Positions 9,116 to 51,200 of a stretch of DNA of 64,000 nucleotides are shown here, in pieces; within the stretch, counting starts at the first letter, position 1, and each line of letters starts with the position of its first letter. The position numbers and the translations under genes are program-made. The notes beneath the pieces are model-generated. The model was not told the origin of the DNA and searched no databases. It saw only the letters and a program-made list of their open reading frames with translations. The stretch spans positions 9,805 through 73,804 of the forward strand of contig JBBHKE010002700.1 of assembly GCA_037447655.1 (NCBI GenBank). The letters are read 5' to 3'. The DNA is from Zygnema cylindricum (lineage: Eukaryota; Streptophyta; Zygnematophyceae; Zygnematales; Zygnemataceae).

Positions 9116-12100
9116 ATGGTTCCTTCTCTCCAAAGTCCTCCTTTTCTTTCCTTCCTGCCAGGTCTTTTCTCTCATATCTCTAAAGGTAAAGGCTCTCGCT
9201 CTCCTCCTCCTTCCTCTCGCCCCTTAACTCGACCTTCGGATGGAGTCCTGCTGCCAGAATCTGCCCGACGAGTCTTATTGGTCCACGTGGCAGGCCTGCA
9301 GTGCGCCGCCTGTGCGGCTGCAGTGGAAAAAGCTCTCCGCCGATTGCCAGGCGTGGATTCGGGTGACGTGTCATTGGTCACAGGACGGGCCAAAATAGTG
9401 TACTGTACGGATGAGCTGGAGGTACGGACGAACCAACCAACATTCAATGTTTGTCAAATATTCGTTTCGAACTCGTGTCCGTACGTGACTACGCATGTGT
9501 CCACAGCATGCATGTTGTACGGATTTGTAGCGTGTCACACGCGTGGACATAGAATGGTGTCTTTTGTCGTTTGTGGATGTGATGATTAGTGTTTGAGTTT
9601 TTGTGTGGAGTTTTGGTGTCACGTCACATTAGAGTGGATATATGTTTTCAAGTGTTTGATTAAACCCTAAAAGTTTGAAATGTATGATGTTATATGAAAC
9701 AAATAAAAAATTGAAAGTTGTTTCACTTTTACAACATAGAGATGAATTTTGAAGGAAGAAGTTAAGCAACAAAAATGATAAATATTGGTGAAAATAATTT
9801 GGCTTTCAAAGAATGACAAAGTTTTAGAAATTTAAAAGGTTGTAGCGGTTCTTAAAAAACCCTAGACAACCATAAATCGAATGGACAAAACATTTTTTTT
9901 TACACATTGTTGATCGTTTACTAATGTTGTTTGAATCAAAGGTTTCCTATTACAATTTAGAAATTTTCGTACGCTTTTAACATTCGGTAGTTCCTGTCAC
10001 ATCAAATGAATGTAGTCAATTTAGTGAAGTGAATTTAGCCATTGTTAGACTCTACACCTCATGTTACAGTTTAGGATTAAGTCACGCGCTTGATTTTGTT
10101 ACCATACTTAAAGATACTTTGAATATGTTGTATCCCCATGTGAGTTGCTCGCATAAAACTGTCTTCTCTCATCGTGAGTTCTCCATCGATAAATTGGTTG
10201 GAAAGGTTCGTGGTCGACACTTTTTTGATCGTACCGTTGAAGCATTCTCCGTATCACTCACACTTTCGTGGAAAAAGTAACATGTTATGTGTTTCACATT
10301 CACGTAGCTTCAGTTAATTAAACATTTTACAATATTGTAAACCTGACATCTTGTTTCTTTTCTTTTGTTTTTATACAGGAAGAGACCATTTTGGAAGCCA
10401 TTGAAGATGCCGGTTTTTCCGCACAAATCCTCGAGGATTCGGATCCTGTAGTTCCTAAACCCCACATTTGTCGTTTGCGAGTGAAGCATATGACTTGTAC
10501 TTCATGTTCCGGAGCCATCGAACGAGCTCTTGCGGTTAGTCTCTCCTTCTTTACCAAAATTTCTCCCTATTGCTCTCTCTACCAAAATTTCTGTCCTCTC
10601 TCTCTTTAGCAAAATATCTCTCTACTACCATACCAAAATTTCTCTATTTCTTTCTCTCTCTCTCTATCAAAATTTCTCTTTGTTCTTGTTTTCTACTAAA
10701 TTTTCTCTTCTCTGTCTACCAGATTTTTTCTTTATTTCTCTATTTACCAGAATTTCTCTCTATTTCCCCCTCTACCAAAATCCCACTCTATTTCGTTCTC
10801 TCTACCAGAATTTCTCTTTACTTTTCTTTTTTACCATAATTTCTACCTCTGTCTCTCCCTATACCAATTTTTTTTTCTATTGCTCTCTTTACCAGAATTT
10901 CTCTCGATTTCTCTCTTTCTACCAGAATCTGACAGAAGAACCAAGCAGGCTTGCGATGTTATGAGTTTGGGAATAATTTTGCATAACAACTGGATTTTTG
11001 TCTCTTTCTTCTTGCTTGTCCATGATTTTTGGATTTTTTTTTGGAAATTAGTGCTTGTAACTGCTCCTACATTTGAGTTTCGCTCAGCGAAGTAATTTTC
11101 TTGCCATTTTTGGGTTGAAAGAGATATTTTGCTGATACTTCTTATTCCTATTTTGAATTCTTTCTTATTCGTAAGTCTTATTCTTATCATTATCCTTTTC
11201 CTAATCTTCATCCGTATCCTTATCCTTGTTTTTGTTCTTGTGCGTATCTGTATTCGCATTCTTAATCTTATTCTCATTCTCATTTTTAATTTTATTCTTA
11301 TTTTTTCATTCTTATCCTTTATTCTTCATTCTTATTCTGCATTCTTAGTTCTCATTCTCATTTTTATCCCCATCTATCCTAATCCTCATCCTTTGTGTGC
11401 AGAAAGTTGCCGGAGTCGAGAAGGCCACTGTTGCCCTTGCCACTGAAGAAGCTGAAATTATTTTTGATCCCAGAAAGTCAACCCCGCAACAGTTTATTGA
11501 GGCAGTGGAAGACGCCGGATTTGAAGCCGATGTGATTTACGTAAGTGGAGAAAGCACAACTCTCCAACTTCTGTTGGAAGGTACACATTCTCAAGAAGGA
11601 TACGACAACATTGAAAGTGCTTTATTACGGATTCCTGGAGTTAGTTCTGTGGAATTTAACGGAGATAAGGCGATTGTGACATACGATGTTGATGTGACAG
11701 GCCCAAGATCTATGATAGAAGCCATAGAACTTTCAGGACCTGGGGGGACATATAAAGCAAGTCTCGTGGAAAATGACCCAAGGGCGAGAAAGGGTGGTAA
11801 TAGCGATGAAGTGAAAAATATATGGAGCTTGTTTCTATGGAGTCTTATTTTCACAGTTCCGTTGTTTCTACTGGCTATGGTGTTGCCATATGTGCCTGTC
11901 GTGAAGACATGGGTGGAAGCAAACATGGTGAACAAGTATGTTAAAATCTGAGGCCCTTTTTGATTTCTTAATGTTTATAAATGCAAAATTTGTTTTTTTT
12001 CCAGTTTCGAAGGTTTAGCGAAAATTGAGGGCAACCTGATAAGGGACTACTAATGTTTTCTAATGGTTTAGTTTTTGTGGGATTCGAAAATGGATGTGAG

Positions 12101-12450
12101 GTTATTATGCGTTACTAGTTTGTTAGAGTGAGAACAGAGAACCGTATTTGTTTCAGTATATATTCCTGAAGTTGTTATGGTGTAAAACACAACATTCACA
12201 TAATTAATGCTTTTTGTGGAACTGTTCCTGACGGTTATTCAGAAAGCCTCTCTCTCTCTCTCTTTTTTTTCCCCTCAAGCATCTTTATTGCAAACCTTAT
12301 TCTGTTTTAGATCATTTTTAAGATTGCAGAGCACACATGTTTCACACATTCATTTTAACTTCAATTTGTTTAAACGTTTAGTTGCAATCTTCCCATTTCT
12401 GTCTGCCTTCTCCACGTCTTGTATTAACTTTTTTGTCATTCTGCTCTCCG

Positions 12451-12518
<68 letters not shown>

Positions 12519-12531
12519 TCTCTCTCTCTTG

Positions 12532-12562
<31 letters not shown>

Positions 12563-15500
12563 GCTCTCTCTCTCTCTGTCTCTCTCTGTGCAGACTTACA
12601 GTGGGTGCTCTTCTGCGATGGGCTCTGGCAACTCCAGTGCAGTTTATTATTGGGAGACGGTTCTATGTGGGAGCTTTTAAAGCTCTCCGTAATAAATCTG
12701 CAAATATGGATGTGCTTATTGCCATGGGAACAAATACCGCCTACTTCTATTCTGTTTACACAGTCATAGACGCCTCTCTATCTCCTATGCATATGGGAAT
12801 GGATTTTTTTGAAACCAGTGCGATGCTTATTTCTTTCATTATGCTCGGGAAATATCTTGAAGTTCTTGCAAAAGGGAAAACCTCAGATGCTGTTATGAAA
12901 CTTCTCCAATTGGCTCCGGATACGGCTATTCTTTTGGAGCTCGAACCAGGAAGTACACATTCAGGAGCTGTGATTTCAGAGAAAGAGATAAACACACGAC
13001 TTATTCAAAAAAATGACGTTATTAAAGTTGTTCCTGGATCGAAAGTTCCTATCGATGGGAGTGTTATATGGGGTCAAGCGCATGTGAATGAATCGATGAT
13101 TACAGGAGAAGCTTTACCCGTTTTGAAAGGATTAGGTGACAAAGTAATTGGTGGGAGTTTAAATGTGAATGGAGTAATGCATGTCCGTGTTACCCATATT
13201 GGAGGAGAAACAGCTTTAGCCCAAATTGTGCAATTAGTCGAGGCGGCACAAATGGCGAAAGCGCCGATTCAAAAATATGCCGACAGAATATCGTCAATTT
13301 TTGTGCCTTTGGTGAGTTTGTTTATTTGCTTGTGATCCCAGAAAAGAATGGTTATGAATGGTTACTTGTGATCCCAGAAAGAATGGTTACGAATGGTTCT
13401 GTTCTATGTTTTATGTTTTGTGCCTCTCGTGGGTTATTTTTCTGCTTGTTTTTCCATAGATTGGAGGTTAGAATTTATGAAATTGGGAGAAAAGGGGGAA
13501 TTGAAAGTGTTTAAGAAGACTCATTTTGTATGAATAGGTTTGTGTTTCATGTCTTATGTTGAATGTTGAATGTCTAATGTTTTGTGTTTCATGTTTTATG
13601 TTCAATGCTGCATGTTGTTTGTTTCATGTTTCACGCTTCACGCTTTATGTTCGATGTTCAATGTCCAATAATTTTTTGTTTTTTTTTTTATGTTTTATGC
13701 AGGTTATTTTGTTGGCGCTATCCGATTGGATGGCGTGGTATTTGGCCGGGAAGTTTGGAATATACCCCCATTCATGGCTTCCTCATTCCATGGATGCGTT
13801 TGTGTTGGCCCTTCAGTTTGGGGTTTCCGTTCTTGTCATTGCGTGTCCATGTGCCTTGGGACTCGCGACACCAACAGCTGTCATGGTGGCCACAGGAATA
13901 GGAGCTACACAAGGGATTTTGATAAAGGGAGGAGAGGCTCTGGAGAGAGCACATAAGGTGAGTCAGTGAGACACTTTTTTGTTATTTTTTTTTGGTCTTC
14001 AAGGGAGGGGAGAGAGAAGGGCTCTGGAGAGGCGTTGGAGAGAGCACAGAAGGTGAGTCAGTCAGACACTTTTCTATAACTTTTGGTTTTAAAGGGAGGA
14101 GAGGGAGAGGCTCTGGAGAGAGAACATATACACTTTTTTCAATTCCCTGTTTGCCTCTCAAATTGCGAAATTAATTATAAATCGGTGGAACCCAAATGAG
14201 AGCAAAAGGTCAAAGCGTCAGAATAGCGTTGAGAAGTTAACGTTTATTTGGCCCAAACAACTGTTTACGAAATGACTGTAAATGATAAAATGTAACTGAC
14301 AATGTAAATGACAAAATGACTGGTATATAAGATGTGGTGATCTGTCTCGTGTTTTTCACTCGAGAGTTTGAGAGGAACGTCTAGTTATTGTTGAGATATT
14401 ACATTTTGCGGCAGTTTATAACATATGTTACATGTATATACGTTTATGGAAAAATTGAGCTTAAGGGAATGAAAGTTTGTCCTTCGGTTTTTTTTGGCTC
14501 CCTGCTGGTTGTAATGCATTTAGATACTTCATGCTATTTTGCTTATTGCTTTGTTACTTAGCTTCTTGTTTTGTTATTTTGCTTTTTCTTTTGTTATTTT
14601 GTGTCTGATCTTGTTATGTTGCTGATTATTTTGTTATTTTGACTATCGTTGTGTTCCTTTTGCTATTCGTTTCGTTTGTTTGCTCTTGTTCTGTTCATTT
14701 GCTTCTTGTTTTGTAATTTTGTTTCTTGCTTTCTTTTCCTTCATGTTTGTCCTTTTGCTTCTTGTTTTATTATTTTCCTTATTGTTTTGCTTATTTTTTT
14801 GAGGGTTTCTTTTTCTGCAGATTAAATACGCTGTGTTTGACAAGACTGGAACTTTGACTGTTGGGAAACCTACAGTCACAAGTACACGAGTATTTGAAGG
14901 CACAAAAATTAGTAAGGGGGAGTTTTTATCCATTATGGCCGCGGCAGAGGTGAGAGACACGAAAAATTTCCTTCCCAAAAACTTAAAAACCCTAAAAACC
15001 CTCGATAACCTTCTAAAAAACCCTTGAAAACCCGAAGAGGCCTAAACCTTTGTCTGGAACAAAATTTTCAATGAGCAGCAGTTGAAGTAAAGTAATATGT
15101 CTTGTCACAAACTTTTTTACGGTCCCACCTCTCTTCCCGCAACTTTTTATTGTCAGAAACAAACTCATTTACAACGACGGTTTTGCTTCTTTCGCTTGTG
15201 TTTGTTCCCCTTTTTTGATGTTTTTTTTTTGCCTTTTTGTTGTTGTTTTCCTTTTATTGTTTGTTGTCAGGTTAACAGTGAACACCCTCTTGCAAAGGCT
15301 ATTGTTGACCATGCTCGCATGGAACTGAACTTAATGAACAATATCGGACTTTCCTCCATGGAAAACCAAAATACGGCCGTAATTTCCAACAATGATACGA
15401 TTGGTTTGCCGACTGCAACCGATTTTGAGTCAATCGTTGGATATGGAGTAAAGTGCCAGGTGTCAACGTCTAAAATCCTTGTGGGAAGTGGTCGACTTAT

Positions 15501-17383
15501 GAAAAGCAATAACTTAGACATGTCATTGGAGGCAGATGAGTGGTTACAAAGTATCGAAAACGGAGCAAAAACCGCGGTTTTAATGGCCATGAATGAAAAA
15601 GTGGTGGGAGGAGTTGCGGTTTCGGATCCAGTGAAACCGGAAGCTGCGACAGTTATAGATATGCTGAAGGAAATGGGTATAAGGAGTATAATGTTAACGG
15701 GAGATAATTGGGGTACCGCCAAAGCTATAGCATCGGAAGTCGGGATTGAAGATGTGGAGGCAGAAGTCCTCCCATCGGGAAAAGCGGAGAAAATCAAGCA
15801 GTTACAGGTACTTTCAAAAAATTGTCTTTTTCCTCCTCTCTCTCTCTCTCTCTCTGTGTCTTTCTCCCTTTTTTCCCTCTTCCCCTCTCTCTAAATATAT
15901 CTATCTCTATCTCTGTGTTGTTTTGTTTTGTCTTTGCTTTGTTAGGGCTTGCATCTTTTTAGCTTAGGGCCAGGAGATTTGTACTGTATCAAATTAGAGA
16001 AATTGCGGGTTTTTCTTTGTCGTCTTTGTGGATCAAATAATTTTTTTTGAGGTGGATTAGTTCATAAATTTGTTTGGTTCAGGTTTAGGTCAACAAAATT
16101 GTCCCTCAATTAGTTTTACTTGCAGTACCGTAACAGCCGTCCCTGTAGACTTAAATCGGGTGTAATCGAACTATAACCGAACTATTTCAATATTGAAACT
16201 ATTTTAATATTGTTTTGTCACAAAAGTGCAAAAATTGAAAGACATGCGTCAATTTGCCGTCCGATGACTATGTACCCTCGGCCAGTTGAAAGCTTCCGAC
16301 CTGTAATTTTTATAAACAATATTGTGCGAAGTTCAAGATCTCAAAAATTCGTCGCCAAAAGTTATATTCAAAATGTAAAATAATAAATTAAGCAATAATA
16401 AATATAGAACCGGCTTTGATTTGAAAATACTGAGAACAGAACCAGCTTCGAGCTGAAAATAATGAGTATAGAACCGGCTTCGGGTTGAAGAGGGTTGTGG
16501 TAATGTGGAGGCTGTGAGATGTATGTACTATTTTTAAACACTTATATAGTGAAGAAAAAGCACAGCATTTCAAGCCAAATGGTTTATCGGTTCATAGATT
16601 GTTAAGCCAAAAGGTTTATGGTTAAAACCTGATTTGGTTTAATTTATGAACTTGTCTTAACAATTGTGAATTACTTAGTACTGGTTTAATCCTTTCACAG
16701 CTTGAACGGAAGTGAATTCAATTGGTTCGAAAGTTGATTACGTTTTTTTTTTAACACAGTTAGTGGGGAAGAGGGAAAGGGAGAGAGATGTAGGGAGAGG
16801 GAAAGGCAGGAGAAAAGTGTTGATGACTGTTTATTTCTGGGAGTAGTGATTTTTTTTTTGTTGTTGTGATTTTGAGATGGTTGTGATTTTTAGAGAGTTG
16901 TCGTGACTCTTTGCCGTTCTTGTTGTGTGACATTTTGCTGTCTATTTTTTCGTCTTTTCTGTGTGACAGAGGTCCGGACGACAGGTGGCGATGGTAGGCG
17001 ATGGTGTGAACGATTCTCCGGCCCTCGTCGCGGCCGATGTGGGAATGGCCATTGGAGCCGGTACAGATATCGCCATCGAAGCCGCCGATATTGTACTTAT
17101 GAGAAGTAATCTCGAAGATGTTATTACCGCGATCGACCTTTCACGTAAGACATTCACTCGCATTCGTCTCAACTACTTTTGGGCCCTTGCGTATAATATT
17201 TGCGGGATTCCTATAGCTGGTGGAGCGTTTTATCCTCTGTTTCGGTTGCGTCTTCCTCCTTGGGTCGCCGGGGCGGCCATGGCTATGTCCTCCGTTAGTG
17301 TCGTTTGTTCTTCGTTGCTTTTGCGGCGTTACAAGCGTCCTCGTCGGTTGAACCTTCTTGATGTGGAGATCAGTTTACGGTAG
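9116..17383 (+). CDS. HMA5: Copper-transporting P1B-type ATPase, HMA5-like
   Basis: Pumps Cu(I) across a membrane with ATP. Exons by splice signals: 9116-9421, 10379-10534, 11403-11935, 12594-13311, 13703-13957, 14821-14949, 15271-15807, 16970-17383; all phases close, about 1015 residues, near the usual plant length. Visible in order: a metal-binding domain with CAAC (Cys63/Cys66, GLQCAAC instead of GMTCAAC), a second with CTSC (Cys142/Cys145), a third degenerate domain without CxxC, the actuator motif TGEALP, the membrane Cys-Pro-Cys (619-621), the phosphorylated Asp663 in DKTGT, the His-Pro pair (704-705), TGDN (842-845), GDGVND (888-893), and C-terminal membrane helices. The fit is closer to HMA5 than to RAN1/HMA7, from memory. 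The start is the ATG at 9116, the only one giving an intact first domain. The introns are pyrimidine-rich and full of local repeats. Confidence 0.93.
9422..10378 (+). other. Intron 1 of the copper ATPase gene
   Basis: Donor GTACGG follows a complete Glu codon and acceptor TATACAG precedes GAAGAG. The open frame that runs past the donor to about 9589 is read-through into the intron, not coding. Nothing else is evident. Confidence 0.7.
10535..11402 (+). repeat. Pyrimidine-rich degenerate tandem repeats in intron 2
   Basis: From about 10550 to 10930 the motif TACCAAAATTTCTCTCTATT recurs every 25-40 bases. From about 11130 to 11390 CTTATTCTTATC-like hexamers follow, up to the acceptor GTGTGCAG. 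The long ORFs here arise from the repeat composition and are not genes. Confidence 0.8.
12457..12593 (+). repeat. (CT)n microsatellite forming the 3' splice-site tract of intron 3
   Basis: About 130 bp of CT dinucleotides end in GTGCAG directly before exon 4 of the copper ATPase. The tract probably serves as an extended polypyrimidine tract. Its length makes it prone to slippage. The Leu/Ser-repeat ORFs in it are artefacts. Confidence 0.9.
13925..14136 (+). repeat. Tandem copies of exon 5 end and its splice donor
   Basis: The last bases of exon 5 plus its donor (core GGCTCTGGAGAGAGCACATA, then AGGTGAGTCAGTGAGACAC) are followed by two further copies at about 14003-14070 and 14093-14136. The first extra copy keeps an AAGGTGAGTCAG donor; the second has lost it. 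The true exon is the first copy, which keeps the frame into DKTGT. Confidence 0.75.
15808..16969 (+). other. Intron 7 of the copper ATPase gene
   Basis: Donor GTACTT and acceptor GTGACAG. It holds a CT tract (15836-15890) and three tandem copies of a unit of about 35 bp with the core AGAACCGGCTTCG (about 16406-16490). No MITE ends are seen. Confidence 0.6.
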
Positions 17384-20278: not shown

Positions 20279-21782
20279 AGCCAGAAAGAAAAATGAATCT
20301 TTACATACAACCACAGTGAAGAGTTTTGGAATGGCATGGAGATCTAAAGCACTTTGGTATGCTGTCAATAATTGTCCCTGTAAAACCCTACAAATCCCTA
20401 AAAACCCGAAAAAATAAAATACCTCAGAATGGAGCATGTTTTTGGTGATACATTGACGATTTTATAACGGTCATCCGAAAGGATTTCCTTGCATACTTTT
20501 GTTTTTTTTGTGCTTTTGGTATATTGACACGTTGTGTTTCTTAAGATAGTACACGAATGAGGTTTTGAGTGAGTAGTAGGCGGCACACCAAATGTTCCAG
20601 CGCACGAAATGTTTCGTTCTTGCAGAATGTTGCACATATAATTGCATGTTGTGCAAAACCAAAAAAACAAACTTTTCAGGACGATCACATTAGAGACAAA
20701 CAAATAAAAATAGAAGACAAAATACACAAACGACAAATCCCAAATACCATTTACGGAAGCTAGGCTTGTACAATGTATGAAAAAAAATAAGAATAGGCTG
20801 GTTGTGTCATCCTTCTGTACATAAATAAATATAAAAACACATGCAGATTAGAGGGAGAGGGAGAGGCCACTGCATGTAAATTTCACAGCAGCGTGTTACA
20901 ACAATCCAATTATATCCAATATTTTCCGCATTTAATTTTAGGCTGAAAATTGATCTATTATATTTTTCTTGTTAGTGTTACTTCATTTTATCTATGCTTG
21001 TACTTCGATCTTTTTTACACCTATTGCATTTTTTATATTTCTAAATTTGTAATAAATTCAAATTATAAAATCAGAGCACACAAAAAGGACCCTTGTCGAC
21101 AAAAAGATAAAAATGGCAGATAGAAATTTTAATCCAAGGGTTTCAGAGTATAATCAAAATACAAAAAAGTACAAAGAAAAACAAAAACATCTGTAGACAA
21201 ACCTATCTCCTTTTCAAAACAGGGAAGTTAACCTCGGAGATATCTTCAAAAACATTATCATTATCATCATAAGTACCATGCAAAGATTTTCCCCAATTTT
21301 TTTTCTTTTCCATAATAAAAAAAAAGAATGTATCCTACCCCAACAATAAAATCGGATACAACTACCCAAAACGAGAAATAAACTTCTTCAAAAACGAGGT
21401 TCACACTTAACCTTACATCCACACTAATCCATCCTGCACACTAGACGCTGATGGAGATAGAACTCAAAATCAGCTATTTTTCTCTCTACTCTCCACACTA
21501 AGGCAATTTCAATCTACTATAACCGCCACCCATCAAGGAACCAACCTCCACAAACCAGAGGAAAAGCCCCGCCTAAAAAACATCTTTCCACAATGATAAA
21601 GCATTAGAAGGACTCATCATCACTGCCACTACTAAAACCTCGGGACATCTCCCCATCTCCAAAATCCGAGGAAGAATCCCCACTCCCTTGACCGCCGGTC
21701 GAGAAACAATTCGGAAAATCAGAAACATTAGCTAAATCTCCTCCAGTGTTACTATCACTGTCACTATCACACAAGCGGTCAA
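20279..21782. repeat. Segmental tandem duplication, unit B
   Basis: This copy includes the 3' half of the functional last exon of the AdoMetDC-ODC gene (21604-21782) and about 1.3 kb downstream of its stop codon. The upper boundary lies inside that exon, just beyond the codons for Asp-Arg-Leu before the CDSDSDS run. Confidence 0.85.
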
Positions 21783-24700
21783 TCATCTCATTCACATCCT
21801 CGTTTTGAGAAGAGTAGACATAGTGCGTTGCAATATCTGCCGAACTAAAACCATTGAAGGAAGAACCCGCAGCTTGCGTGTAAGCTCCCATGCGAGGAAA
21901 TACCTGAAAAAAAAAACAGCAGAACATTAGACAAAATCCACTTCCAAAACAGAGAGGAGATTAGTGAAAAGAATACAGGAGAGAGGTGATGAGAAGAAAA
22001 AAAGGGAGATAAGAGAAACAGGACAATAGGGATAACAGGTAGAAGAGAGGGAACATAAGGCATACAAAGGAAGTATAAAAAGAAGAGTTATACTTAGGTC
22101 AATATAAAATGCATGAAAACAAATTCAAATATTAAGCAAAAGTGTACATAACCAAGTCGCCACATCTGTAGAAAATGTTTTTCAAATGATAAAAATGATA
22201 ATAATATGCACAACAAAGAAAAAAACAAGATATGGCAAGTCAACCAAAAACTCACCAGCCAATCACCACACTCTAACTGAGGGAGCCATACATCTCGAAG
22301 AACCGTATCCAATCCATCACAAGTCGGTCCAAAAATAGTTGAAAGATACATCTTACTGCCATTCCAAGAGCTACCAGATGCCTCTCTCTCCTTCCCAGGA
22401 CCTGCCACAGGCCTGGTAGTAAGCTCGGCATGGTCATACAGTAAACAATTCATCGACCCATACAGCCCATCATTAATCCAGTATTCTCTCTTCTGCTCTC
22501 CTCCCTTTCGGACACGTGTTCCAAAAACATGAGTAGCCAAAGTGGCTGGAGCCTCAGCAAAAAACCTTCCTGGTTCGGCTATAATCCGTACACCTGCATT
22601 CTCCGGGAAATACATATCCAAAGCAGCATTTATAGCCATGGCTGCCGCATTGAACCCTACTCCTTGTCCTCCCTTCGAAGTAAACCCTCCTCCAATATCG
22701 AGTAAAGTCATCTTCTCCATTCCCAGACTCTCTGCCATATCAAATATAGACCGAGCTGATTCAATTCCATCTGCAAAAGCTTGAGGATTAGAAGCCCCAC
22801 TACCCACATGGAAAGCAACACCTGCCACTTTCACATTCAGTTTCTTAGCAAGCTTCAACAAATCCTCGCAATCCTCAATTTCTGCTCCATACTTCACTCC
22901 GAGAGGACACCTGGCATTTCTATCATCCGCTCTAATCCTCAGTACAGCCTCCGCCTCAGGATGATACTTCTTCAGCTTAAAAAGCTCCGATTCTGAGTCA
23001 AAGGTGGTCAGAGCCACATCTTTCTCTTTTGCTGCCCTAATGTGAGTAGGCAGTTTACAAGGATTGGCATAGATTATGTTCTCTGGAGAAACTCCAAAAG
23101 ACGTGACAGCATCAAGCTCAGCTTTGCTCGCCACATCAAATCCAGTCCCAAGTGAAGACAAAAGAGCGATAATTGCAGGATCCGGATTACATTTGACAGC
23201 ATAAAAAGGGGTAACTCGAGGCATTAAAGTAGTCCAAAGTTTCCATAGCCTCATAACCACTCCGAGGTCCAGCAGATAGAAAGCTTCTTCAGCTCCTGTA
23301 GTACGGACAACTGAAGAAATGAACTTATCCACATCTGAGGGAGAGGAACCAATCAGCGACGGCTTAACTGACGCCAACACTGCAGCCGCAGAAGGCCCAA
23401 AATTCAAGAGAGTTTCCTTCACTGCTAGATCCAAAGAGTCAAAATTCTTTACTCCAGAAAGAAGCTTTAACTCCATTACAGAACTCTTCCGTGATAAGTT
23501 CTGCAGACCCTTCCCTCCACCCATCTTCGCACCACTCCCAATCGCCTCCAACTGTAACGGAATCGGAGAAACAGACACATTGAAACTTTCACGGTTCTCT
23601 AGGGCCTTAAAAGTGTGGAAAACCACTGCAGATCCCATGGGAAGTTCCTGACGAGAAGTTCCCTCGCAATAATAGTTCTCCAACTCTGGAAGCTGTCCTC
23701 CCCAAGATCCGGGCCCCTCAAACCCTGCCCCCCCATCCGAGTGGAGAGCCAATGAGAATTTCCCAGGTTTGAAAGTTTCCAAGACATTTTTAACCAGTTT
23801 GCCCAAGTTCGGGCCGTCGTTTCCGTACCCCATGGTCTCGAAGGAGGCGTAAGAAAATCCATCCTCAGGGGTAATATGGATAGTAGAATGGGCGTTTCCT
23901 TCAATCCCATTCATCGAGTACCCACAAGGCTCGAAGAGAAAATCGTCAATGTGCGATTTTGGCAATAGCTCTCCAATACCAGAAGCCTTGGTACATTCCG
24001 CGGGAGTTAAAAAACCTGCTTCTTGGTAAAACTGGGAGGCCACCTTCCTATCCAGCTTAGTCATACACATCTCCATGGTATAAATTGGTTCACGATAACT
24101 TTCCATTGACTTCCCTCCAAACTTTCCCCATTCTCCCTCTCCTCCCCCTTTGGACACCTTATCAATCCCCGCCACATACACATGCCAGTTGGGAAATTTG
24201 AGCGCATCTCCCATCACAAAAGCTTTCCCTCCACTCCCCAAGTGCCCAAAATGTTTCTCCAAGACCTTCGCCTCCGAGTCGAAAGAATGGTGAGGCTCCG
24301 GTTGAACTTGAGGAAACATGAAAGTGCCACGTGTATACTTGCACCTTGAGGGTAAAAACCCGACTTTCTCCGCTGACTTCAGTAAGTTAGGTATAGCGTC
24401 CAAGAGTTTAGTAGTTCCACATGTCTTGATCACCACTCTCTTGGGGTATACGAAAAGAGAAGACTCCGACAGCACATAGGAGTCAAAAAACTCATTAGGC
24501 AAATGAGAGACGATTGTGCAAGCAGCAGAAGACAAAGTTACATCCCAGTCTTCCCTCGAAATTCTCCGTAGGCCATCCAAATTTTCACCCTCCAAACTAT
24601 CTCCATCTTCTCCACACTCGGTTCCCACCTCCCAAAATTCAATTTCAAGCCTCTTTTCAAACCCCTCGAATCCAGGACAAGGGAGAGAGAGGCCTCCTAC

Positions 24701-24790
24701 TGAGTCACCTCCTCCATTCTGAACTCCCTCAACGATTATAACACTCTCCTCCATAGTACCCTTCTCCTCGGGAGGAAATAGTCCACCCAT
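21604..24790 (-). CDS. SAMDC-ODC: Bifunctional AdoMetDC-ODC fusion
   Basis: One protein of about 944 residues that should make both decarboxylated AdoMet and putrescine for spermidine/spermine synthesis in the cytosol. Exons 24790-22256 and 21903-21604, donor GTGAGT, acceptor TTTTCAG, phases close. After a leader of about 40 residues, residues 40-405 are a plant-type AdoMetDC: FEGFEKRLE, the self-cleavage site LSESS (Glu109/Ser110, Ser becoming the pyruvoyl group), and KTCGTT with Cys124 at the conserved spacing. Residues from about 440 are ODC: the PLP lysine in FYAVKCN (Lys533), HVGSG (His661), DIGGGF, EPGRFF, and GPTCDG with catalytic Cys824. The 60-residue C-terminus is Asp/Ser-rich and ODC-atypical. 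Start: ATG at 24790; an in-frame TTG upstream was rejected. The domains are joined in 2.5 kb of uninterrupted frame, so this is not a missed intron. The AdoMetDC-ODC order is known from Plasmodium; I know of no described plant case. Confidence 0.93.
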
Positions 24791-24861: not shown

Positions 24862-25556
24862 CTAAGTACCCTGAAAACTCTTAGCAGGGAGGCGTTATCT
24901 AAAAGAGAGGAGAATAAGTGGAAGAAGAGGGAGAGAAGAGGGAGGATAACTTAAAGTAGAAGACCTAATCTCTAAATGTCCTAGATTGAGGAGTATCTAA
25001 TTAGGGTTTATCAGGATGGTTTGCGGACACACTGCACAGAAACAAACAAAAAAAATATTTCAGCAACGGAAAAAAAAAACGGAGATGGTATCACAAACAA
25101 ATACAGCGGAAGAAAGGGCAATACAAAACATTTTTTCGAGGAATGAAAAACCAAGAAAGATTTGAACATCAGACAAAAACAGAAGACATACTACCATAAT
25201 ATTCCTATTACCAAATAGTTTCATGCTCTTTTTTACTCTTCCATACAGAAACCGAAATCAAAATCGATAAAAAAACCCATTGACTCGATATGAGACAAAA
25301 CTCTCAGAACTCAATGAGATACAATACGTTTCTCATTCGAAACACTAAACAACCACAAAAGTAGCTCACATAACTCTCAATAAATATGATATAAAAGGTT
25401 GACAGGTCTTACGTTCGAGTAGGCAGCAGTTCGGAAAAAGTCGATTCCTCCCCAGGGGCGAACGTCCTCAACTACGAATCCTAGCGGCGCCTCGTACTGC
25501 CTCGTGGCTAAATTAGTAATACTAGGTAAACTTGATGATGAGTCCTTTGGCTCCAT
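24862..25556 (-). CDS. Small uORF of plant AdoMetDC leaders (spliced)
   Basis: A predicted 50-residue peptide encoded upstream of the fusion gene. Exon part 25556-25413 encodes MEPKDSSSS, then YEAPLGFVVEDVRP, GGI and FRTAAYSN, the conserved core of the small uORF of plant AdoMetDC genes. A donor GTAAGA follows the Asn codon at 25412. The most likely acceptor (TTTTCAG, 24873-24871) adds Gly-Thr and TAG at 24864-24862; a slightly later acceptor would lengthen the tail. The stop lies about 70 nt before the main ATG. In the known plant system this peptide stalls ribosomes when polyamines are high, lowering translation of the main ORF. Here that would control ODC as well. Confidence 0.88.
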
Positions 25557-25564
25557 TACTTCAT
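25556..25564 (-). CDS. Tiny uORF overlapping the small uORF by one base
   Basis: ATG AAG TAA on the minus strand; the last A is the first base of the small uORF ATG. This one-base TAATG overlap is the arrangement described for plant AdoMetDC leaders, where ribosomes translate the tiny uORF when polyamines are low and then bypass the small one. Confidence 0.85.
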   Translation of the reverse strand: MK

Positions 25565-39700: not shown

Positions 39701-42511
39701 ACAGTATATTATAAAGTACTATTATATAGCGTACTATACTTTTTCCACTTATCGCGCCGATAAGGAATTTGTTGGTCTCGGAGCGATATATCGGGACCCC
39801 TGACCGTTCGATAACCGATAACTATCGGTATCGGTGTTATCACGATAAATTTCTTGCCGATACACAACACTACTTGTTTTACACCAGTTTGTATCAGTTA
39901 TAACATGGAATAACTACTAAAATACTCATAGCACCAATATGAACGCAGGTCAGGTGAAAGCATTGTCAAAATCGACAAAACAAAATAAATGGATAAAACT
40001 GCAACGCTATGTCAGCAGCTCGATACAAAGATAAGGGAGAACACATCACGAAATTGAAAAAGGAAAATCTCCAGGTAACATCAAGCCTTGGTGTTTTATC
40101 CGATTGAGATTGAGAATAGAACTCTGTACACCACTACTGCTCTGAAAAGACATTAGCTAAAAAATAAGCTTGAATGGTTTCTCTCCGGTATAATCGGGTC
40201 AACCTGTGGGGACTTTGTTCACAAAAGAAAATTCACTTTTCGTCACACTAACTTGGTAACGCCTTTTTTTGACACTGATAAAAAAATTGAGTGTGGACCA
40301 TATAAATTCGGGGGAAGACAAATTCACATCTACGTGGACTTAGTTCCGAATCATCAGACAATCCACATTTAAATGTGGTCAAATGGTAAAGTAAGTTGTT
40401 CAAATAAAATGTTGGATTTATATAAAGATAACCGATGATACATTGATTACAAGTTTCCAGCCTTTCCAGTTCAAGAAAATAAAATACATGATTGCAGCAT
40501 TTTACGACAGGAAGAAAGGATTGAAACTCTGAAGTAAGAGATAAAACAAAAGAACGTGTACACAAAAGAATGTTAAATCTTGAAGAAGGTTTAATTTTGG
40601 CAAAGGTGATAGCTTTACATGGTTTTTAAGTGGAGAACAAAAGTGATAAGGGCACACAAAACATACATTTGAGCCTTAACGAACACAAATCACTATACCT
40701 CTCAACCATATCTAGTTTGGACAGACTAGTAGGATGCCAAAAAGAAATGATTGTATAATCCACCAAAAAAAAAATTATGCCCAAAAAAAGGGCCCACGTG
40801 GGCACTCTTAATCGACACGGTTTTGCTTCGGTAATCACATCGCCCATCGCTATTAGAGTTAATAACTGTAATTTGAGTGTGCACAGTTGTCACCTAAAAT
40901 CATAAAATAGTGTTAACAACACTAATTGTTGAAGTGGGACACAATGAGCTGTTAAATTTTGCAAAACATAATTTAATGTAGTTCGTTTCGACTTAACGCT
41001 TATAATTCACTAACTCTGATATATAATACAACATAGTATATTCTAATGAAATGTTGACGCTAATAATTCACTAACTCTAATAGCGATCAGTGTACTGTGG
41101 TCCACAGTAATTTATGTGTTGACAAAAGAAGTCCAACCATACATTGTCATTATTAACACTAATGTACTAATGAACTTTACTGTTTTATAACATTACACTT
41201 CCTATAGCTACTAGAGATAAAAATTCTATTTTTGACCCAAAATCGAATATTAGCATCAATGATACTATTTAGTAAACTGGCCCATAATGAGCCACGAGGC
41301 ACAACATGATTTATTGTAGTTAACTCTAGTGAAGTATAAGACTAATAATTCACTAAATCTAACGGTTATCGGCAGTGTACTTAACCGCCCATCGCTGTTA
41401 GCATTAACAACAGTTATTCAGTCGTGACTTTTTTTTGGCCGAAAATCATAAAATAGTGTTAATAAGCGAAAATCATAAAATAGTGTTAATACGACACAGA
41501 GGGCCACATAGGACCACACATGTTTTTTGTCTTTTTGTGTGACAGAGTGGAGTACGATCCGCCACATCTCTCAACGGCAAAAAACAATCGATAATAAAAA
41601 TAATCGATACATAATAATCGATACATTAATAATAAAAATGAAAAACATGGCCCTGAACCCTAAAGTGAATCTCCCCATCCCCTCAGGGGTTCCAAAAGGT
41701 TTCAGGTTTGTTATGAAAACATTTAAACGAATATAAGAGGTAAAGTTAAAAAGAAAAATAAAAAAGAAAATAAAGCACTGAAAATAACTGAATAACAAAC
41801 CTAAACCCTTTCAAAAAGAAGATATGAAAAGCCCTAAAATTACTGAATAACAAACCTAAAACCCTTTTGAAAACAAACAAATAAATAAATTAATAAAAAT
41901 ACAGAAAAATACAAAGAAAAAAAAATACAAAGAAGAAATACAAAAAAATAATACAAAAAAAAATACAAAAAATAATACAAAAAAGGCCTGACCAAAAAAA
42001 AAAAAAAAAAAATACCTGGTCTGTCGCTTACAACCACCGCTATTTGTCCGTACATTTTTCCCTCCAAGATTGACTTATGAATGGCTTGAAAATTGGAACC
42101 TCCTCCGGATACAAAAACTGCCAATTTTGCTTTCACAAAACCCCACGACTCTCTACTACTGTCTTCCAAATTTTGCCCTTCCGAAACTCCTCCCTGAGCC
42201 CTGACACCCGTCCGTACACTTTTCCGCCATGACCTGTCCGTACACCTGTCCGTACACTTTTTATGGCTGCAAGGACAGGGTTTAAGAAACAAAGGAGCAG
42301 TTTTTCCTAAAGTTTTCCTGTGTATGATCCCAGGGACATTATTCCGTACGTTTAAACAGATAAAATCTGTCGTTTTTTCTTGTTTCAGTTTTATTTGTGT
42401 GATTTTATTTAAAATAGTGTTGACAAAAACTCTGTTCTGTGTAAAGTTACATTCTTTGAGAGTGCTGTTAACAAAAAGCTCTCCTGTACCTGGCAGTCTG
42501 CAGGAGGCCAT
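36722..42511 (-). CDS. GART: Phosphoribosylglycinamide formyltransferase (GARFT)
   Basis: Transfers a formyl group from 10-formyl-THF to GAR in purine synthesis (PurN type). Exons on the minus strand: 42511-42016, 38542-38431, 37772-37596, 37093-36967, 36835-36722; phases close at about 341 residues. After about 130 residues without family similarity come KLAVFVSGGGSNFQAI, DCGGCEYAREHNIPVL, GVDYVILAGYLKLLP, NIHPALLPAF (catalytic Asn and His), GPTVHFVDEKYDHG (catalytic Asp), and WREDGVPLI near the end. Plant GARFT is organellar, and the N-terminal extension, poor in acidic residues at first, fits a transit peptide. The start is the first ATG of the open frame. Intron 1 (3.5 kb) carries an hAT-like MITE; intron 2 carries a TACATGACTTAG repeat. 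Confidence 0.92.
37810..38240. repeat. TACATGACTTAG repeat in GARFT intron 2
   Basis: A TACATGACTTAG-type unit of about 11-22 bp recurs more than 20 times with variation, split by unrelated sequence at about 38030-38095. It produces spurious Cys/Ser/Lys-rich ORFs on the minus strand. Confidence 0.8.
39420..39872. mobile_element. hAT-like MITE in GARFT intron 1
   Basis: The ends are TAGTGTTGTGTATCGGCA and TTGCCGATACACAACACTA. The flanking 8-bp duplication is CTTGCTTT (39412-39419) against CTTGTTTT (39873-39880), seven of eight identical. The interior is rich in ATCGATAT and TATCGCGATA words and self-complementary. A relative with a different core is at 43589-44028. Non-autonomous. Confidence 0.8.
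40830..41520. mobile_element. Degenerate mariner-like MITE remnants in GARFT intron 1
   Basis: GCCCATCGCTATTAGAG (about 40845), CTCTAATAGCGATCAGTG ending before TA (about 41094), ACGGTTATCGGCAGTG before TA (about 41371) and CCGCCCATCGCTGTTAGC (about 41390) are divergent ends of the family seen at 731. Their pairing into individual elements is uncertain. Confidence 0.4.
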
Positions 42512-47100: not shown

Positions 47101-48250
47101 GTTGATTACATCCATTTGTCGTCTTTTCATTCAGTGTTCCAAAGAACAAGAGGACTGTCGGTGAGTTTTATACACTGTCTTAGCTTTACTTATGCATGTG
47201 TTTATTCATGTTGTATCTTTTTAACCACATTCGTACTCTGATGTTATTTGCTTTGCTTGCAAGAACATCAACAATTTATGTCATACGTCTGGAATGCAAC
47301 TGCATTGTGTGTGTTTTTTGCACAAATATGATCGGATTTGTCTAATTTTACTTTGCTTATGCAATTTTCTTTTCTGGCACCATCGTCAGCAAGTTATCCT
47401 GAAGCAATTTATGGTTAGGGTTCAATTTGTATGAACGCATTATGATTATGACTGTTCTTTACCGTCGTATCTTGCTTTTGGTTAACTTCAGAAGTGTAAT
47501 TGCTGTCACACACTTGACTTATTTTGGGTTCAGAAGCCATTTTATGGAATTCAATTAAAAATTAAATTAATTATGGTTCGTTTCCACATTTGGTAGCCGT
47601 CATCATCGCTTGTGCGTCTGGTTTGTTGGGGTTCAGGTCGTAATTTAGATCCCATACCTACAAGCTTTTTTCATTGTCCTTTTCAACATGTACGTGCTGT
47701 ATTTTCAAATTGTCCTACAGGGATCTAATGCTGTTCGGGCAGATTCTCAGCAGATACAGAAATAGGCAGGGTTTCCCTTAGTGGAGTTGCAGCAGCCTTG
47801 TTAATCTCTGGCCATTCATGTTTACATCTGTTATAATCAATTACATAGTTTATTTTGCTTAAAGCACTTTTGCTGGTTCTTGCAATATCTCTTTTTGCCT
47901 GCTGTATCTGACTACTCTTAAAGCCTTCCCAAGTATAAATATTTATATTTAAAAAAAACAGCTTCAATGGTTGTTATTAGCCACAGTGCCGATGATGCAT
48001 TTGCCCTTGGCCTTTATGTTGTCTGCCAGCTTAATAAATTCAGCTGGTATATTGAGTTATAGTTGTGATTTGGAGAATTTTCTAATAATTTTATATCAAG
48101 ACAAGTCTAGTAGTCACGCGGAATACTAGCTGGACCATTTATGTGTAACTTCATTCGTTTTCAAATATTTTAATTTTATTCCCGATGGTGATATTACAGG
48201 GTACAATTTCAGTGGTTTAGGTCCTCTTGAAAGGGCTCACTGTAATTTAC
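47100..48250 (+). promoter_or_regulatory. 5' UTR region of exportin-T with probable leader intron
   Basis: A good donor (ACTGTCG/GTGAGT, 47161) and an acceptor (GATATTACAG, ending at about 48200) would remove about 1 kb and join a non-coding exon to the start-codon exon. This is inferred from splice signals only. Confidence 0.35.
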
Positions 48251-51200
48251 ATGGATGATTTCGAAAAAGCTATTCTGTTTACTTTCGATCAGAGCGGGGC
48301 TGTTGATGCTCAGCTCAAGTCCCAGGCCCAGGCTTACTGCGATCAGGCTAAACAGTCAGCTGGGTTCTGGCGTGCTTGCCTGGAGCGAATAGCAGTTTCA
48401 CAATATGTGGAAGTGCAATTTTGGTGCCTTCAAAGCCTGGAGGAAATTATTCGACAGCAATATGGCTCTTTTAGAGCGGAGGATTCTCTTCTTCTTCGGC
48501 AGACTCTAACGTCCATTGTTTTGTCAAGTAATGAACAAAAGCTGCCTCCTTCAGACGTTGGGTTCAAGAAAGGTTTGTCTGTGATGGAAGACAGCAGATT
48601 GGCAGGCTGTGGGCCTGGGAACGCAGTAGTTTCTAGTGAAGGTTTGCAGAACCAGACTCGGCCTGCCTTTGTGCGCAATAAATTGGCACAGATAGTAGTT
48701 CTCCTCATCTTCTGTGATTATCCTTCCGGGTGGCCTTCTATCTTTTTAGACTTGTTGCAAGAGCTGGAACAAGGGCCTCATGTTGTGGATATGATGTGTC
48801 GTATTTGCAATACCCTTGATGAAGAAATCATCAGCTTAGATTATCCTCGCACTGCAGAGGAGAATGCAGCAGCCACACGGATTAAGGATGCTATGAGGCA
48901 GCAGTGCATTTCACAAATGGTGGACTCATGGTACAGACTGGTAGTAGCGTATGAGAGGGTAGAGCCTGGACTCAGTGCTTCTGTCCTTGAAACTATGCAT
49001 CGATTCATTGCATGGATGGATATCAATCTTGTCGTCAATGATAAATGGGTGCCATTATTTTTCCAACTACTTTCTTCTTCTGAAGTTCTTGAAAGGCTTC
49101 GTGGAGCTTCTGCTGCCTGTCTCTTGGCCATTGTATTAAAACGCATGGACGCATTGCAGAAATTAGCACTCCTTCAGCGCTTACAGATGATTCAAGTCTG
49201 CTCTGGAGTTACGGAAGCCAGGGACACAGATTTTGCAGTCAAGTTGTCTTCTCTCCTAACTGGCCTGGCTTCTGAATTATTAGAATGTTGCAAGAAGTTG
49301 GAGGTTAATGGTGCAGTCACTGCACCTGAGGCAGTAGGTGCTTCTGAATTGGCTCATAATATGTTAGACGAGGTACTTCCAATTGTTTTGCGGTTTTTGG
49401 AACATGGTGAAGAAGATATCTCGATGACCACTTTTCAGTTTCTTTTAGCCTATGTTGGAAATATAAAGAGGGTGGGTGCCTTGAGCATAAAACAACAGGA
49501 GCACCTGGCTCAAGTTCTGGCTGTCATAAGGTCCAGGATGCGTTATGATCCATCATTTGAAGAGTCTTTAGCTGATCCCGACAAGGAAGGATTGGAGGAG
49601 GAAGAAAGGATGAGTGAGTACAGACGGGATCTTTTTACACTACTGAAAAATATCTCTCGAATTTCCCCTGAAGTGACCAAGGCATTCATGCATTCATGCC
49701 TTTTAACAACTATTGCTGGGCAAAACACTTCTTTTGAAGACATGGAGGTCGCCTTGACCTTATTTTATCAGTTGGGGGAGGGTATATCCGAGGAGGCTCT
49801 GAAGCCAGGAAGTGGCCTCATGGCTGAAATGACTGCTGTGGTGATTACATCAAATATTCCTCATCACTCCCACAGAACAATTGCACTTCTGTTTTTGGAA
49901 ATTGTTGTCCGTTATGTTCGGTTTATTGAGCAGCATGGAGAGTATATTCCGCCTGTCCTGGCTGTGTTTTTGGGAGACAAAGGCATTCATCATCCAAATA
50001 TAAATGTGGCCAGTCGAGCAAGCTATCTCCTTATGCGCCTTGTAAAGGTTCTGCGAGTGAAGCTGTTGCCTTATGTGGAATCTATTTTGCAGGTAATTTA
50101 CATTCATTCTATTTGGATAACTAATTGTTTTGGTTACTTCCATTCTTTTTTTGGTTGTTTTTTGGAGTCTGTACATGTACTCGGGTTTCTCAATAGTAAG
50201 CTGGATACATGTACAATTTATGGAGCCCCGTTTATGAGGACAATGAAACAAATTTAACGACATTGGTGTCCACCTAGATGTGGTTTTTAAGGTCCAATGC
50301 TGTGGACAATTCAATCTGGTCAATTCTAGGATGATCGTGCTAAAAGAAGAAATAAAGGTTCTATTCTGATCGCCCATGGGTTTTATCACGTTTTACATGT
50401 TTGTTTTAACAGAGCTTACAAGATGTCCTTGCTGTAATTGCAACTTCTTCATCTTACAAAGTCATTACTGGCCGGGTTGAGGGGCCGTTAGATGAACGGA
50501 TTTACGCATTTGAGGTAATTTTAAGACTGACAATTTTGAGAGGTCCTTTAATCCAACATAATCAATGTATCATGGTCATTCATATCCTCAAAATATCTTT
50601 CTTTTCTCGTTGTGAATGCATGTGACTTCTTTTTCTGGATATATCCGTCTGCCAAAAGATGTGCTTTTATAATTCAGCAATTGACATTGTTAAATGGCTT
50701 TACTTTGACAGAGCTTTTGACCATGCATTGTGGTTGTTAGTTTGCATGAAGATGTCTAAACTTGCTAGTTCTGTTTCACTGCTTTTGGAACGAGAATACA
50801 TGGTTCAAATTTTGTGTGCCCCTCTTTTCGCAACCCATATTTTTTAATGTCTCTCTCTGGATGTTTCTTGCAGGTTGACGCGAGTATTCCTTGCTTTCAC
50901 ATCAGTAGCATAATTATAAAGCTAGAAGGACCTCAAGTTTAAATTGGCTGCGGTCAGCTGACATTTGCTTTTTTCTGTTTGTTTTGTCCTGGTTCAGGCA
51001 GTTGGGCTGTTGATTGGACTTGAGGATTTACCAGAGGAAAGAATGTCCAAGTACCTTTCAGCACTCCTTGTCCCTCTCTGCCAGCAGGTTTGCTTCATAT
51101 GCTCATTTTTTTTTATGCTGACAGTTTTTGATTTGCCAGCTATTCTTTCTTTTGCTAAAATTCCATGCCTGCAATGGCCTCATCTCGCAGGACCTAGCTG

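Follow-up and report, generated by a model that had tools for sequence, protein, structure and literature searches.

An AdoMetDC-ODC fusion gene in Zygnema cylindricum

The DNA analysed here (the window) is a stretch of 64,000 nucleotides from the zygnematophyte alga Zygnema cylindricum (GenBank assembly GCA_037447655.1, contig JBBHKE010002700.1, positions 9,805 to 73,804 of the forward strand). Its minus strand holds one gene that encodes a complete S-adenosylmethionine decarboxylase (AdoMetDC) followed, in the same frame, by a complete ornithine decarboxylase (ODC). The frame is open from an ATG at 24790 to 22256 (exon 1, 22256..24790; 845 codons) and resumes, across a predicted intron, from 21903 to 21604, stop codon included (exon 2, 21604..21903), for a protein of 944 amino acids. 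A preliminary description made from the DNA letters had proposed a single 845-codon frame plus one further exon carrying both enzymes; the open frame and the Pfam matches agree, and its outer coordinates, 21604..24790, prove exact.

Exon 1, identified by its open frame, by Pfam and by its relatives in the PDB (1mhm and 1f3t), provides the N-terminus, the whole of AdoMetDC, a linker and most of ODC. The AdoMetDC domain, SAM_decarbox (PF01536, E = 2.4e-105), spans protein residues 40-395 (23606..24673), and within it the proenzyme processing site LSESS occupies residues 107-111 (24458..24472), as placed by residue alignment and by the chain boundaries of 1mhm. The ODC portion within exon 1, residues 511-845 (22256..23260), is covered by PF02784 and PF00278, with Orn_Arg_deC_N at 511-745 (E = 2.5e-76) and Orn_DAP_Arg_deC at 749-845 (E = 7.7e-16). 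Exon 2, placed by frame and residue alignment, supplies the end of ODC, including the Tyr389 equivalent (Tyr853), and an acidic Ser/Asp-rich tail with the last residues SSGSDDESF. The predicted intron (21904..22255, minus strand) measures 352 base pairs (bp), is of the GT-AG type (GTGAGT...TTTCAG) and lies in phase 0. Past its donor the exon-1 frame remains open for 53 codons; splicing is the better reading than read-through because the joined protein matches relatives such as P0001 (P numbers denote proteins of the comparison set).

The joint between the two enzymes, near 23500, where a stop codon or gap would have spoken against the preliminary description, contains no stop, gap or N in the printed sequence. 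Four relatives with Trinity transcript names (P0001, P0002, P0006 and P0009; 55-62% identity over 96-100% of exon 1) are continuous across the joint, which makes an assembly chimaera at this point unlikely.

Catalytic residues and structural relatives

By alignment, all catalytic residues checked are intact in both halves, as expected of a bifunctional enzyme. The AdoMetDC half retains the processing site between Glu109 and Ser110, Cys124, Ser292 and His305. The ODC half retains Lys533, which binds pyridoxal phosphate (PLP), together with His661, Gly700, Glu739, Arg742, Asp786, Cys824, Asp825 and, in exon 2, Tyr853. The equivalents of Lys69, His197, Glu274, Asp332, Cys360, Asp361 and Tyr389 are thus all present, as expected of a eukaryotic ODC rather than an arginine or lysine decarboxylase. 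The processing site, catalytic Cys and main ODC motifs read in the preliminary description are all among the residues found.

The closest solved AdoMetDC by sequence is 1mhm_A (E = 7.6e-68), the potato enzyme, with 1msv next (E = 3.7e-47), so that this half is plant-like, as had been claimed. The match to the B chain of 1mhm stops at query residue 109 and that to the A chain begins at 111. Potato Arg18, Arg114 and His294 are said to replace activation by putrescine; at these positions Arg47 and His350 agree, while Lys151 is a Lys instead of an Arg. The same Lys occurs in 95 of the 125 other fused rows and in 67 of 120 standalone rows; at the His350 position, 83 of those 125 fused rows have Ser or Thr. 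The closest solved ODC by sequence is that of T. brucei (1f3t, E = 1.6e-95).

An AlphaFold2 model of exon 1, built on 63 aligned sequences, has a mean predicted local distance difference test score (pLDDT) of 84.7 and a predicted template modelling score (pTM) of 0.64, with pLDDT below 50 only at residues 1-35, 62-67 and 212-231 and in the linker at 416-436. In Foldseek the ODC part of the model falls on solved ODCs, with human ODC as the best match (E = 4.6e-39). All 50 rows listed are ODCs or the related arginine decarboxylase of chlorella virus, and the AdoMetDC part is therefore identified from sequence.

The upstream leader

The gene is preceded on the minus strand by the pair of upstream open reading frames (uORFs) typical of plant AdoMetDC genes, in agreement with the preliminary description, which had the plant leader retained. 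The tiny uORF, ATGAAGTAA (25556..25564), ends in an A that also opens the ATG of the small uORF, an overlap of 1 nucleotide that is found between these two uORFs in other plants too. The first exon of the small uORF (25413..25556) has 48 codons, reads MEPKD...YEAPLGFVVEDVRPWGGIDFFRTAAYSN, and is followed by GTAAGA. A predicted intron of 381 bp (25032..25412, GTAAGA...TGCAG) would join it to a second exon, TGTGTCCGCAAACCATCCTGA (25011..25031), which encodes CVRKPS and a stop. The peptide spliced in this way has 54 residues, ends in CVRKPS and matches PF08132 through the last position of the family (E = 3.5e-22). Between the small-uORF stop and the main ATG at 24790 no further ATG was found. In Arabidopsis AdoMetDC1, according to an excerpt of PMC6504692, two overlapping conserved uORFs regulate translation by polyamine level.

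PF08132 is also annotated on three listed fused proteins, P0029 and P0044 (prefix Chlat1, read as Chlorokybus) and P0034 (Closterium; rechecked). These are taken as gene models that merge the uORF with the main frame.

Distribution of the fusion

Of 7987 candidates scored in a search with the exon-1 protein, 1716 reach E <= 0.001. The best 120 of the 1716, which are the relatives listed here, all carry AdoMetDC together with both ODC Pfam domains. Named land-plant sources are Marchantia polymorpha, two Riccia, Calypogeia fissa, Selaginella moellendorffii, two Adiantum and Ceratopteris richardii; named streptophyte algae are Klebsormidium nitens and Closterium. Further named sources are Trebouxia, Myrmecia, Bryopsis, Nannochloris, Elliptochloris, Micractinium, Coccomyxa, Cymbomonas, Tetraselmis and Apatococcus, and a model prefix or cut-off name points to Mesotaenium, Spirogloea, Chlorokybus, Mesostigma and Nephroselmis. 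Seed plants and mosses are absent from the named sources of these 120 (many rows are unnamed). One check suggested in the preliminary description was for proteins with both domains; they occur in charophytes, liverworts, Selaginella and ferns.

Separate searches with each half, taking the best 120 matches per search, add 120 AdoMetDC-only proteins, 114 ODC-only proteins and five further fusions. The domain order is AdoMetDC-ODC in all 126 fusions of the set. A standalone AdoMetDC exists in addition to the fused gene in Selaginella, Calypogeia and Adiantum. Of the 126 fusions, 117 show the complete set of five ODC core residues and 117 the complete set of five AdoMetDC core residues; the incomplete cores (nine of 126 for each half) are mostly gaps or partial sequences. 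Judged by the residues checked, the fusion of Marchantia polymorpha is intact.

In one fused protein, P0097 (prefix Mesvir1, taken as Mesostigma), Gly replaces the catalytic ODC Cys (Cys360 equivalent). A separate ODC, P0247, carries the same prefix, and the ODC half of P0097 is perhaps dying in place.

ODC remnants on standalone AdoMetDC proteins

C-terminal extensions of at least 20 residues, present in 113 of the 120 AdoMetDC-only proteins, were compared with a profile of the ODC half. Seven proteins score at E < 1e-3, versus two of 2260 shuffled sequences (best shuffle 2e-4). P0151 (1.8e-11), P0146 from Marchantia paleacea (1.3e-10) and P0157 (3.1e-7) lie far beyond the best shuffle. In local alignment against seven fused ODC halves, all seven proteins score above all 300 of their shuffles (P0135, from Calypogeia fissa, at 122 versus a shuffle maximum of 62); the seven were picked from the profile screen, and the alignment is not an independent screen. 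These two liverworts are the named ones among the seven carriers.

The remnants differ in what is left. P0146 and P0151 hold a decayed portion of the ODC core, and P0157 retains the linker and the start of ODC. What P0128, P0131, P0135 and P0140 retain is the final stretch of ODC with its tail (in three of them SDSCEEYSIF...SSDD), which looks like excision of the ODC core. In a careful AdoMetDC tree, from which eight rows were dropped and to which five remnants were added, the remnants fall at starred forks in three places: P0157 adjoins fused Calypogeia, P0146 and P0151 form the sister pair of these, and P0128, P0131, P0135 and P0140 adjoin fused Marchantia and Riccia. From these positions it would appear that, after duplication of the fusion, two liverwort lines retained ODC on opposite copies.

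The converse screen covered the 103 of 114 standalone ODCs with N-terminal extensions of at least 20 residues and found no AdoMetDC remnant before them (best E = 9e-4, against 2.2e-4 for the strongest of 2060 shuffles), which leaves an origin of standalone ODCs by fission unsupported.

Direction of change

The first AdoMetDC and ODC trees used 32 of the 126 fused, 19 of the 120 AdoMetDC-only and 21 of the 114 ODC-only proteins. The nearest neighbours of the window protein in the trees are P0001 and P0002, followed by Mesotaenium and further rows read as zygnematophytes. With the root of the AdoMetDC tree set on chlorophytes, the fused proteins of Mesostigma and Chlorokybus are the first to branch off, and the standalone genes of Chara, moss, lycophyte, fern and seed plants are interleaved with fused ones; in the careful tree the fork after Mesostigma and Chlorokybus, ahead of the standalone land-plant rows, has support 100/98. 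A topology that confines the fused rows to a single clade, with the standalone rows outside it, is rejected by the approximately unbiased (AU) test, both for AdoMetDC (p-AU 4e-162; 0.0014 after removal of three rows, namely two liverwort standalones and one short, incomplete fused Chlorokybus) and for ODC (p-AU 2e-60; 4e-75 after removal of the suspect or long rows of Tetraselmis, Caenorhabditis and two Closterium standalones). Because all 120 listed relatives are fused and the trees put standalone AdoMetDC among fused proteins, the fusion is read as old and the separate genes as derived: fusion is probably ancestral in green plants.

We regard it as very probable that the product of the window gene is a bifunctional polyamine enzyme of a type that is old in green plants, inherited from a fusion in a green-plant ancestor, with standalone AdoMetDC derived by loss of ODC. 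The fusion would have a single origin, and the standalone AdoMetDC of land plants would be what was left when the ODC half decayed or was excised in duplicate copies. It is also likely that the textbook plant AdoMetDC gene with its polyamine-sensing uORFs is the leftover of this ancient green fusion after repeated loss of the ODC half, in liverwort lineages from opposite duplicates, and that the seed-plant ODC consequently stands outside a feedback brake it formerly shared with AdoMetDC.

Several observations weigh against this account. The root of the AdoMetDC tree was placed on chlorophytes and not derived from an outside group. With a single long Caenorhabditis row as its root, the ODC tree puts Mesostigma and Chlorokybus outside the chlorophytes (support 88), and in a joint tree the chlorophyte rows do not fall on one side and two long rows meet; the placements in both trees conflict with species relationships. 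Several vascular-plant forks are weak (88/48, 86/50). Four of the seven remnants score within or near the shuffle range by profile (P0131 6e-5, P0135 1.4e-4, P0128 3.2e-4, P0140 7.9e-4), and their identification as remnants depends on the pairwise alignment. No named chlorophyte standalone AdoMetDC occurs among the best 120 matches of each search. The fusion is not universal in green algae: Table 2 of PMC6356823 gives different ODC and AdoMetDC accessions for Chlamydomonas, Volvox and Bathycoccus.

Those separate accessions would also suit two or more independent fusions from separate genes, one in chlorophytes and at least one in streptophytes, with the land-plant standalones partly ancestral. 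Such a history gains from the standalone ODCs listed for Klebsormidium and Closterium (those of Closterium perhaps being gene-model fragments) and from the standalone AdoMetDCs of Selaginella, Calypogeia and Adiantum; all five also have the fusion. It gains further from a streptophyte-only ODC tree, where beyond Mesostigma and Chlorokybus the fused rows all lie on one side (support 76, not starred); this pattern fits an old duplication that gave the standalone ODC line of seed plants, lycophytes and Sphagnum, and also fits a later fusion. The identical domain order throughout the 126 fusions speaks for one event, however, as do the fused state of the early streptophyte algae Mesostigma and Chlorokybus (by model prefix) and the remnants, which record loss of the ODC half in liverworts. 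On balance we hold repeated fusion to be unlikely.

A recent fusion limited to the lineage of the window, the kind of isolated event envisaged in the preliminary description, would agree with the separate genes of named seed plants. It is not borne out and is rejected as wholly improbable, since the 120 fused relatives extend across chlorophytes, charophytes, liverworts, Selaginella and ferns, with standalone AdoMetDC among fused proteins in the trees. It is very doubtful, too, that only one half is active and the other structural, as may be so in Mesostigma with its Gly at the Cys360 position. The few fusions without a full core in one half or the other would suit this, most of them being the gaps or incomplete sequences noted above; in the window protein every residue checked is present in both halves.

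Proposed function

Under the preferred reading of an ancestral bifunctional enzyme, the chain would fold as AdoMetDC and cleave itself between Glu109 and Ser110 to form the pyruvoyl cofactor, with a flexible linker leading to a PLP-dependent ODC. ODC would make putrescine and AdoMetDC decarboxylated AdoMet, so that one chain would provide both substrates of spermidine synthase at 1:1. ODC is active as a dimer, and the functional enzyme is therefore probably an (AdoMetDC-ODC)2 assembly joined through its ODC halves. Plant AdoMetDC is said, in an excerpt of PMC5201418, to have lost dimerisation and the putrescine requirement, which likewise points to the ODC half as the probable dimer contact. 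The dual uORF leader, by analogy with that of Arabidopsis AdoMetDC1, would brake both enzymes together by polyamine level and would bring ODC under polyamine control without antizyme. Judged from its sequence, the protein is likely a bifunctional decarboxylase whose two products, putrescine and decarboxylated AdoMet, would be supplied under a single uORF brake that senses polyamines.

If this is true, the usual picture is reversed. Green plants began with one gene for both spermidine synthase substrates, the separate ODC and AdoMetDC genes of flowering plants are derived, and in plants the AdoMetDC uORF places ODC under feedback by polyamines; according to an excerpt of PMC6504692, plants may lack a conserved antizyme mechanism. 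Marchantia polymorpha, with its intact fusion, offers a tractable model.

Comparison with known systems

The fusion of Plasmodium also has AdoMetDC first and is much longer, with parasite inserts. Unlike it, the window gene has an AdoMetDC of plant type and is led by the plant dual uORF, and its independence from the Plasmodium fusion is plausible. Among the matches listed for the whole protein and for each half, no Plasmodium sequence is named. The likeness is that in Plasmodium, too, both enzymes lie within the same open reading frame (PMC5004602, in excerpt).

An AdoMetDC-ODC fusion was reportedly described by Green et al. in 2011 from Micromonas, likewise a green alga with the same two enzymes fused. 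That report is said to concern one alga, whereas the fusion of the window type is traced through the listed relatives to ferns. For Micromonas pusilla, Table 2 of PMC6356823 lists XP_003057072.1 twice, as ODC and as SAMDC.

With the standalone plant AdoMetDC, or SAMDC (1mhm, Arabidopsis AdoMetDC1), the window gene shares the AdoMetDC half, the processing site, the conserved small uORF and the overlapping uORF pair; the standalone form is without the ODC half, a derived state by the trees. With the PLP-dependent ODCs of eukaryotes (T. brucei 1f3t; human 7s3f and 1d7k) it shares all checked catalytic residues and the fold, and differs from them in that its ODC is a C-terminal domain with an acidic tail.

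The type of fusion is already known, from Plasmodium and, reportedly, from Micromonas. For its green-wide spread or its fission no description was found in searches of an open-access library, a weak negative, most subscription papers being outside that scope. Neither is described in the available portions of PMC12803844, PMC9992855, PMC10407285, PMC8503589, PMC11107197, PMC3476827 and PMC2075485, and in a paper on Marchantia thermospermine (PMC11020214) the terms ornithine decarboxylase, ODC, SAMDC and AdoMetDC are absent.

The acidic tail and other frames in the window

The acidic Ser/Asp-rich tail, encoded at about 21604-21720 on the minus strand and ending in SSGSDDESF, has comparable counterparts in fusions from Klebsormidium, zygnematophytes and liverworts, and resembles casein kinase 2 sites. 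A loose pattern for such tails matches 15 of 23 streptophyte fusions (unnamed ones classed by tree position), none of 13 chlorophyte fusions, and 18 of all 126 fusions. It also matches two of 114 standalone ODCs and 15 of 120 standalone AdoMetDCs (four remnant-bearing rows and 11 with other tails), and the motif was dropped as a mark of the fusion on account of the latter.

Elsewhere in the window, further likenesses come from reading the translations. Frames at 11397-15894 on the plus strand resemble a copper-transporting P-type ATPase, a frame at 41840-42511 on the minus strand has a phosphoribosylglycinamide formyltransferase-like motif, AVFVSGGGSNFQAI, and a long frame at 48227-50257 on the plus strand reads like an exportin-type protein.

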